From positions 1 to 64,000 of the forward strand of contig JAJPKJ010000007.1 of assembly GCA_021323755.1 (NCBI GenBank): a stretch of DNA of 64,000 nucleotides, in the 5' to 3' direction. Below the pieces are notes generated by a model, which searched no databases, was not told where the DNA came from, and worked only from the letters and a program-made list of their open reading frames with translations. The DNA is from Chitinophagales bacterium (GTDB lineage Bacteria > Bacteroidota > Bacteroidia > Chitinophagales > Chitinophagaceae). A program made the translations under genes and the position numbers. Below, piece by piece: positions 38,250 through 39,510 of the stretch (positions within the stretch are counted from its first letter, which is position 1; the number at the start of each line of letters is the position of its first letter).

Positions 38250-39239
38250 TTACAATAATCCTTTCTCCATTAAATACTCTGCTATCTGCACAGCATTTGT
38301 AGCCGCACCTTTACGAAGATTGTCGCTCACAATCCACATATTTAAAGTATTGGGTTGTGTTTCATCTCTGCGCAATCTTCCCACAAAGACCTCGTCTTTT
38401 TCATGGGCATCCTTTGGCATCGGATATTGTTGTGTTGATGGATCATCTACCACAATGACTCCCGGAGATCTGCTCAAAATATTTCTCACCTCACCTAAAT
38501 CAAAATCTTTTTCAAACTCAACATTCACCGCTTCGCTGTGACCACCCACAACCGGAATACGCACGGTGGTGGACGTTACCCGAATGGAATCATCCCGCAT
38601 TATCTTTTTCGTTTCGTTCACCATTTTCATTTCTTCTTTAGTATAACCATTATCAACAAATACATCTATCTGCGGGATCACATTCAGATCGATCGGGTAT
38701 TTATAAGCCATTTCTCCCTGCACGCCATTGCGTTCATTCATTAATTGTGCAACCGCTTTTACCCCGGTACCCGTAACACTTTGATATGTTGATACCACAA
38801 TTCTTCTTATTTTATATTGTTTGTGCAAAGGATTTAATGCAACGACCATTTGAATGGTTGAACAATTGGGGTTGGCAATGATCTTATCCTCTTTTGTCAG
38901 GGCATCAGCGTTTATTTCGGGAACAACCAGTTTTTTTGTAGGATCCATTCTCCATGCAGAAGAATTATCGATCACCGTAATTCCAGCAGCAGCAAATTTC
39001 GGCGCCCACTCCAGCGATGTTCCACCACCTGCTGAAAACAAAGCCACATCAGGTTTTGCGGCGATTGCATCAGTTGCGCTCACTACCTTGTATTTCTTTC
39101 CTTTGAATTCAACCTCTTTGCCAATTGACCTTTCGGAAGCAACGGGCAACAATTCAGTGACGGGAAAATTTCTCTCGGCGAGCACTTGTAACATTTTGGT
39201 TCCAACCAATCCTGTGGCGCCAACTACTGCAACTTTCAT
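38250..39239 (-). CDS. asd: aspartate-semialdehyde dehydrogenase
   Basis: VAVVGATGLVGTKMLQVL, SAGGGTSLEWAP, IANPNCSTIQMVVAL. Confidence 0.96.
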   Translation of the reverse strand: MKVAVVGATGLVGTKMLQVLAERNFPVTELLPVASERSIGKEVEFKGKKYKVVSATDAIAAKPDVALFSAGGGTSLEWAPKFAAAGITVIDNSSAWRMDPTKKLVVPEINADALTKEDKIIANPNCSTIQMVVALNPLHKQYKIRRIVVSTYQSVTGTGVKAVAQLMNERNGVQGEMAYKYPIDLNVIPQIDVFVDNGYTKEEMKMVNETKKIMRDDSIRVTSTTVRIPVVGGHSEAVNVEFEKDFDLGEVRNILSRSPGVIVVDDPSTQQYPMPKDAHEKDEVFVGRLRRDETQPNTLNMWIVSDNLRKGAATNAVQIAEYLMEKGLL

Positions 39240-39256: not shown

Positions 39257-39293
39257 TAAAAATCAAAAAGCCTCCCCGAATCTGGGAAGGCTT
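39257..39293 (-). terminator. terminator hairpin in asd leader (candidate attenuator)
   Basis: Minus strand AAGCCTTCCC-AGATTC-GGGGAGGCTT followed by TTTGATTTTT; 10-bp stem, ends about 18 nt before asd start. Confidence 0.85.
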
Positions 39294-39316
39294 CTATTAT
39301 TTTGAACACAAAACAA

Positions 39317-39379
39317 TCAGGCATCTTCCCTTTTCAAGAGCGTCTTGCATGTTTGCTTTGTATGTTTTGTAATCATCAT
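39317..39379 (-). CDS. putative 20-aa Thr/Lys-rich leader peptide of asd
   Basis: ATG ATG ATT ACA AAA CAT ACA AAG CAA ACA TGC AAG ACG CTC TTG AAA AGG GAA GAT GCC TGA; 4 Thr and 4 Lys codons; lies between consensus promoter and terminator. Confidence 0.6.
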   Translation of the reverse strand: MMITKHTKQTCKTLLKREDA

Positions 39380-39385
39380 GAGGAG

Positions 39386-39416
39386 CAAAAATAATTACGA
39401 ACGCAGTTAATCCCAA
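39386..39416 (-). promoter_or_regulatory. Bacteroidota-type promoter of asd leader
   Basis: Minus strand TTG (39416-39414) - 20 nt - TATTTTTG (39393-39386); 6 nt before leader ATG. Confidence 0.7.
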
Positions 39417-39510
39417 ATTTTTTTACTTTTATTATCAAACATTTCCGCAAATGCTTGTATTTGCTTATGAACGGTCGGATAAAACAATTCAGGAACGCGG
39501 TTACATTGTC

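Follow-up and report, generated by a model that had tools for sequence, protein, structure and literature searches.

The window, i.e., the 64,000-nt stretch of Chitinophagaceae DNA analyzed here, carries asd on its minus strand. Directly upstream of this gene, the first-pass annotation had proposed a TTG-N20 promoter, a start codon 6 nt further on, a 20-codon ORF rich in Thr and Lys codons, and a terminator, and all of these features are present in the minus-strand sequence (Table 1). The leader ATG (39379) lies 6 nt 3' of the TATTTTTG box. Thr is encoded by codons 4, 7, 10, and 13 and Lys by codons 5, 8, 12, and 16, exactly as claimed (four Thr and three Lys codons within codons 4-13, and Lys at codon 16). 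A terminator scan returned an intrinsic terminator at 39295-39266 with a T-rich tail, the 12-bp stem of which contains six G-C pairs. The ATG of asd, a gene whose identity had been assigned correctly, follows 26 nt 3' of this stem. The GGGAAG sequence near the end of the leader (39330-39325) has its complement, CTTCCC, within the terminator's 5' arm. The element folds with -36.9 kcal/mol (z = -4.45 against dinucleotide shuffles) and represents the sole combination of promoter, small ORF, and terminator of this kind in the 64 kb of the window. Further upstream, after a PepO/M13-like peptidase gene, an inverted repeat (AAGGCTTAC...GTAAGCCTT, 39548-39510, minus strand) is followed by a T-rich stretch; it is probably the terminator of the peptidase gene, separating that gene from asd.

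Table 1 Features of the asd upstream region in the window
Feature	Position	Strand	Evidence
Promoter TTTG-N20-TATTTTTG, Bacteroidota-type	39386..39417	minus	sequence and relatives
Leader ORF MMITKHTKQTCKTLLKREDA (20 codons, then stop)	39317..39379	minus	sequence; in relatives, reading frame, synonymous bias, and absence of stops
Control codons of the leader: Lys 5, 8, 12 and Thr 4, 7, 10, 13	within 39317..39379	minus	
Segment A (AUACAAAGCA), inside His-Thr-Lys-Gln codons; partner C	39354..39363	minus	covariation; paired in minimum-energy fold
Lys12 codon AAG, likely stall codon, 16 nt 5' of B; Lys at this position in 66/74 in-register leaders	39344..39346	minus	
Segment B (GGGAAG), 5' half of anti-terminator, overlaps leader codons 17-19	39325..39330	minus	
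Segment C (UGUUUUGUGU), 3' of leader stop; partner A	39306..39315	minus	covariation
Segment D (AGAAGCCUUCCC), terminator 5' arm; partner B or E	39284..39295	minus	terminator scan, covariation
Segment E (GGGGAGGCUUUU, 39277-39266) and T-rich tail, terminator 3' arm	39258..39277	minus	terminator scan, covariation
asd, aspartate-semialdehyde dehydrogenase, presumed regulated gene	38250..39239	minus	NCBIfam NF011456/PRK14874 and TIGR01296, above cut-off

The first-pass annotation had suggested a family-wide alignment of this region for the leader, its codons, and compensatory changes in the stems. The asd upstream regions were sampled from genomes of the genus and the family of the window (Chitinophagaceae, by named records; n = 138), and the element was found conserved, with covarying helices, in 104 of them. 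These comprise all 100 terminator-bearing regions, which were matched by our model R1, and four further ones; since R1 was built from terminator-bearing members, their matching is partly by construction, while the leader was not used in choosing them. Most of the remaining regions belong to more divergent members in which the terminator is absent, too (27 regions), and where it is absent, the model found nothing above noise. The same holds for all 40 asd loci sampled from other families of the order, two of which have an unrelated terminator. From a set of 80 named records, 23 matched at E below 1e-6, including Niastella yeongjuensis, Limnovirga soli, Flavihumibacter, and Filimonas; asd of Mucilaginibacter, Pedobacter, Sphingobacterium, Flavobacterium, and Hymenobacter in the same set did not match. 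As far as sampled, the element seems to belong to the Chitinophagaceae. It can be discarded as a general feature of Bacteroidota asd genes, since the other families of the order and the records from Sphingobacteriaceae, Flavobacteria, and Cytophagia gave no match. Some relatives (L003, L005, L022, L047) have roughly 180-330 nt between terminator and asd, with motifs like AACGTACAAGTGTGCGACGCAA; the window does not contain GTGCGACGCAA.

Relatives that keep the hairpin and have lost the leader ORF or its codons had been named at the outset as the observation that would argue against an attenuator. The comparison did not bear this out: all 103 elements analyzed have a leader ORF (14-23 codons), and at least three Lys codons are present in 100 of them. 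The peptides share the core K-H-T-K-x-(T/I)-K-K, and Lys, Thr, and Ile account for 24%, 12%, and 8% of their residues, respectively. From the ATG to the last core Lys, none of the 103 leaders has a stop in frame 0, and stops occur in 100 and 52 of the 103 for frames 1 and 2. The pN/pS ratio is 0.57 in frame 0 versus 1.12 and 0.88 in the other frames (53 leaders of one register). Judged by these measures, the coding signal is confined to the leader frame. Relative to the first base of the leader stop codon, segment B begins within -15 to +5 nt in 103 of 103 elements, so that a ribosome at the stop would cover B. If the stop lies 3' of B, the phase of B relative to the ORF is a single one in 69 of 79 leaders; if it lies 5' of B, the phases are distributed 10/5/9. 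Such a pattern would follow from a codon constraint that acts on B only where B is translated. Of 74 in-register leaders, 66 have a Lys codon 16 nt 5' of B, and Lys codons also recur at -19 (48 leaders) and -28 (57 leaders). A TAnnTTTG-like box precedes 101 of the 103 leaders; in 86, its distance to the ATG is 6-9 nt. An exact TTTG is found 19-21 nt upstream of this box in 92 leaders, compared to 11 at a control distance. Because the conserved promoter box is so close to the leader ATG, the RNA is probably leaderless or nearly so.

The RNA contains three helices: A pairs with C (some 12 positions), B with D, and D with E, where B is GGGAAG or a variant of it located around the stop. The A:C helix (39363-39354 with 39315-39306 in the window) had been missed by the first-pass annotation. 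We ranked 3750 column pairs by an APC-corrected G-test. The top 13 pairs include D2-E16, D1-E17, A12-V8, D10-E8, B0-D10, B1-D9, D9-E9, D3-E15, and A14-V6 (the V columns contain C) and thus represent all three helices. In addition, an alignment-free test compared the pairing of each segment with its own partner to that with partners from other sequences (1000 permutations). Own-partner pairing gave z values of 8.4 for A:C, 10.1 for B:D, and 18.2 for D:E, with 0 of 1000 permutations as high, and the control combinations A:D, B:E, and B:C gave 1.2, 0.4, and -0.9. The controls make shared ancestry an unlikely cause of the signal. Structure-pair counts on the model-fitted alignment, and likewise on a plain MAFFT alignment, agree with these results for A:C and D:E; in the distal half of A:C, pairing is seen in only 73% of the cells. 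Matched changes in B and D were found in L047 (GAGAAGG with CCUUCUC), L051 (GGAGAAG with CUUCUCC), L050 (AGGAAAGG with CCUUUCCU), and L157 (ACGGAAGG with CCUUCCGU). Both B:D and D:E covary and use the same bases of D, and the mutual exclusion of terminator and anti-terminator that had been proposed is therefore well supported. The postulated anti-terminator itself stood in its GGGAAG/CTTCCC part, which is complementary in the window and covaries as B:D; the additional GAA/TTC pairing is restricted to the window copy and not conserved. Segment C can alternatively fold into a small hairpin (UUUUG-UGUU-CAAAA, 39313-39300); a local C:C' hairpin of this type (UUUUG/CAAAA) is visible in many sequences but was unsupported by the column-pair ranking.

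The features expected of an attenuator are thus found on the sequence level: a short leader ORF with coding potential, codons for end products, a terminator, an exclusive anti-terminator, and a suitable spacing of stall and stop positions. The coding potential of the leader, its codon positions, the three helices with their exclusion, and the paralogous leaders described below were all traced by comparing genomes. The asd element is most probably a ribosome-mediated transcription attenuator, with lysine as the main signal and Thr/Ile codons that probably add an input from the threonine branch. From its architecture, we infer where transcription starts, that the leader is translated, that the ribosome stalls, and how lysine and threonine act, as follows. 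The near-leaderless transcript would begin just 5' of the leader ATG. With ample charged tRNA-Lys (and tRNA-Thr), the ribosome would proceed to the leader stop and cover B; D would then be free for pairing with E, and transcription would stop ahead of asd. If lysyl-tRNA is low, the ribosome would wait at the Lys codons 16-28 nt 5' of B, covering A, so that A:C could not form and B would be exposed just ahead. Once D is made, the exposed B would pair with it, no terminator would form, and asd would be transcribed. Without any translation, A:C would close B in a loop, thereby favoring the terminator. Lysine shortage would hence very probably turn asd on.

By usual footprint sizes, a ribosome with the -16 Lys codon in its A site ends just short of B. 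The spacing of the Lys codons before B is therefore compatible with the earlier suggestion that stalling frees GGGAAG, and the positions of codons and stop appear to follow the same logic, in which stalling exposes and termination of translation covers B. We folded transcripts ending at D with the ribosome-covered bases masked (103 elements). With a ribosome at the Lys codon, P(B:D) exceeded 0.5 in 103 of 103 elements, compared to 48% without a ribosome and 48% in a control with shuffled B. With a ribosome at the stop, P(B:D) is zero, which is a consequence of masking B. At equilibrium, the full-length RNA favors the terminator whatever the state (mean P(D:E) 0.81-0.98). The decision must therefore be a kinetic one, as in known attenuators.

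In the first-pass annotation, Thr and Lys were regarded as control amino acids of equal rank. This is a variant of the attenuator reading rather than an alternative that excludes it, and asd does feed both branches; Thr is well represented in the leader, and Thr or Ile is found at -22 from B in 45 of 74 in-register leaders. But the frequent Thr codon ACA at -31 falls into arm A, where RNA pairing may be what maintains it; more generally, pairing rather than decoding could account for the conservation of the ACA (Thr) and AAR (Lys) codons in this arm. At -22, Thr itself accounts for only 24 of 74 leaders, and short leaders such as MKMMKHTKRIKKHS contain one Thr and four Lys codons. Paralogous leaders bear on the same question. 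The second model sites within the family proved to be leaders of dapA, a gene of the lysine branch, in ten genomes (L097, L099, L100, L101, L103, L374, L375, L376, L378, L380; one representative dapA was confirmed with TIGR00674). In all ten, position -22 is Thr or Ile at asd and Val or Ser at dapA (once within a changed core, KKYASKKN), and the Lys codons are kept; one such pair is MQKMMKHTKRTKKHSIQWEG ahead of asd and MQLIKKHTKQVKKHSMYGEG ahead of dapA. Thr/Ile at -22 is hence specific for asd in genomes with both elements, a point in favor of a threonine input. The asd and dapA leaders are related and do not count as independent events. Neither the own dapA of the window genome nor its monofunctional aspartokinases showed a lysine leader. 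Moreover, a separate Thr/Ile leader precedes thrA in the window's genus (26 of 27 loci read; e.g., MSSTITTTTTL in the window genome). Since the dapA leaders keep Lys without Thr/Ile and thrA has a leader of its own, lysine is likely the main signal at asd, with Thr/Ile as an added input. The Lys part of the earlier proposal is thus supported by a constant codon and by the dapA paralogues, and the equal weight of Thr was not sustained; we consider it possible but doubtful.

The thrA leaders of the genus (L117 in the window genome; L329-L354), which precede a bifunctional aspartokinase/homoserine dehydrogenase gene, form a hairpin (ACAACCC/GGGTTGT) with their end and stop, and no T-run terminator was seen at these loci; their mechanism may be different from that of the asd attenuator. 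In another family of the class, a thrA leader with Thr/Ile codons (MYNSTIIITIIITTGRNLAEE; L371, G361:C1:2234251-2234391) is followed by an ordinary terminator.

A His-rich leader (MKFNLHIHHHHTCPTR) with a terminator precedes hisG in the window genome and follows the same plan as the asd leader (L115, G000:C37:19362-19498, minus strand; model E = 0.007), with GGTAAGC/GCTTAC in place of GGGAAG/CTTCCC. Such hisG leaders were also found in eight other family members (one representative confirmed with TIGR00070), and leaders with terminators precede hisG, trpE, and thrA in other families of the class and phylum. These leaders of like plan suggest that the scaffold serves more widely in Bacteroidota as an attenuator design whose codons can be exchanged; its lysine version was so far only found in Chitinophagaceae.

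These exchanges also bear on the possibility that the leader acts as a nascent-chain arrest peptide, in which the basic KHTKRTKK stretch itself would delay the ribosome (or respond to an effector or a drug) and the same RNA switch would operate downstream. The leader peptide is indeed conserved and strongly basic, and Arg and Gln recur beside Lys. We nevertheless regard this as improbable: the constant feature is the Lys codons at a set distance from B, the residues in between vary, His replaces the Lys codons in the hisG leaders of the family, and other families of the phylum have Trp codons before trpE and Thr/Ile codons before thrA, as sensing of tRNAs predicts. Even less probable is a riboswitch binding lysine, threonine, or another metabolite, with an incidental small ORF. 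A compact conserved RNA with a terminator ahead of an amino acid gene would be in line with this idea, but the coding signal lies in one frame only and the His/Lys exchange between hisG and asd leaders tracks codons. A known RNA family or riboswitch can be discounted, as no Rfam family matched at cut-off; the best match below it was Phe_leader (32 bits vs 55), itself a leader-peptide attenuator. Finally, although intergenic terminators are common, we give very little credit to the hairpin being the terminator of the upstream gene next to a chance ORF, since that gene has its own inverted repeat, a conserved promoter lies between, and a plain terminator gives no reason for the conserved leader and anti-terminator pairing, on the strength of which this reading was rejected as very unlikely.

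Like thrL, hisL, trpL, and pheL of Proteobacteria, the asd attenuator proposed here combines a short leader ORF, clustered control codons, a stop adjoining one half of the anti-terminator, mutual exclusion of anti-terminator and terminator, and a gene that belongs to the pathway of the amino acid being sensed. Unlike them, it contains mainly Lys codons, precedes asd (and dapA), and has a Bacteroidota promoter with the ATG almost at the RNA start. Its first hairpin, A:C, encloses B without sharing anti-terminator bases and would compete by topology. A Thr/Ile run before thrA, as in thrL, is not what the window leader represents: it is dominated by Lys and located ahead of asd, and the thrA leader of the same genome is separate.

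The Bacteroid-trp motif is linked to trp genes by its name, and the asd element differs from it in both gene and amino acid. No match to this cis-regulatory RNA motif of Bacteroidetes (RF01692; PMC2864571) was found in the window up to E = 10. In Flavobacterium psychrophilum, strong clues for leader-peptide attenuation at amino acid operons and conserved 5' elements at pheA and hisG were reported, and the accessible part of that study of structured elements in Flavobacteriaceae contains no asd, dapA, or lysine case (PMC9723704). SEP5 of Sinorhizobium meliloti, a proposed leader peptide, is encoded by a small ORF in which six codons for Thr and three for Lys are clustered, located in the 5' UTR of a gene called aspartate dehydrogenase; it is alphaproteobacterial, conserved only in Sinorhizobium, and the accessible part of the report describes no attenuator structure (PMC10117765). 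The L-box riboswitch, which has been named as RNA control of lysine genes in other bacteria (PMC1262725), also acts on the RNA level but binds lysine directly and has no leader ORF; the Rfam lysine riboswitch model did not match at the gathering score or at E up to 10. The asd RNA motif of Lactobacillales (RF01732; PMC2864571) is named after the same gene, and it has no match in the window.

Leader-peptide attenuation in Bacteroidota has been suggested before, but we found no detailed working-out, and our literature search, with subscription papers mostly outside its reach, returned no worked-out lysine or asd leader-peptide attenuator. On balance, the asd element is somewhat more likely than not to be the first lysine-sensing leader-peptide attenuator, built on one Chitinophagaceae scaffold (A:C, B:D, D:E) with swappable codons (for asd, Lys and Thr/Ile; for dapA, Lys; for hisG, His), a topological protector hairpin, and an almost leaderless RNA. 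The natural variants (asd vs dapA, asd vs hisG) already amount to a codon-swap experiment. This family-wide, covariation-backed case hints at the amino acid that gates a branch-point enzyme and offers a switch ready for testing in a phylum from which few regulatory RNAs have been described.

Weak model matches in other families (E 1e-4 to 1e-6) were, among those read, ordinary terminators, some hisG/trpE/thrA leaders, and one leader with a run of Cys codons. The latter ORF (MKNTFTFTCCCCSTRR; L361, G400:C50:28283-28415) contains four Cys codons in a row and has a terminator, and a peroxiredoxin-like gene lies about 200 nt downstream; it is a possible cysteine leader. In divergent members of the Chitinophagaceae (L109, L110, L112), leader-like ORFs (MMKINTEYKRNKRSYLLG, MTRKLHKSKKHLPNR) with terminators precede a gene for a PLP-dependent aminotransferase.
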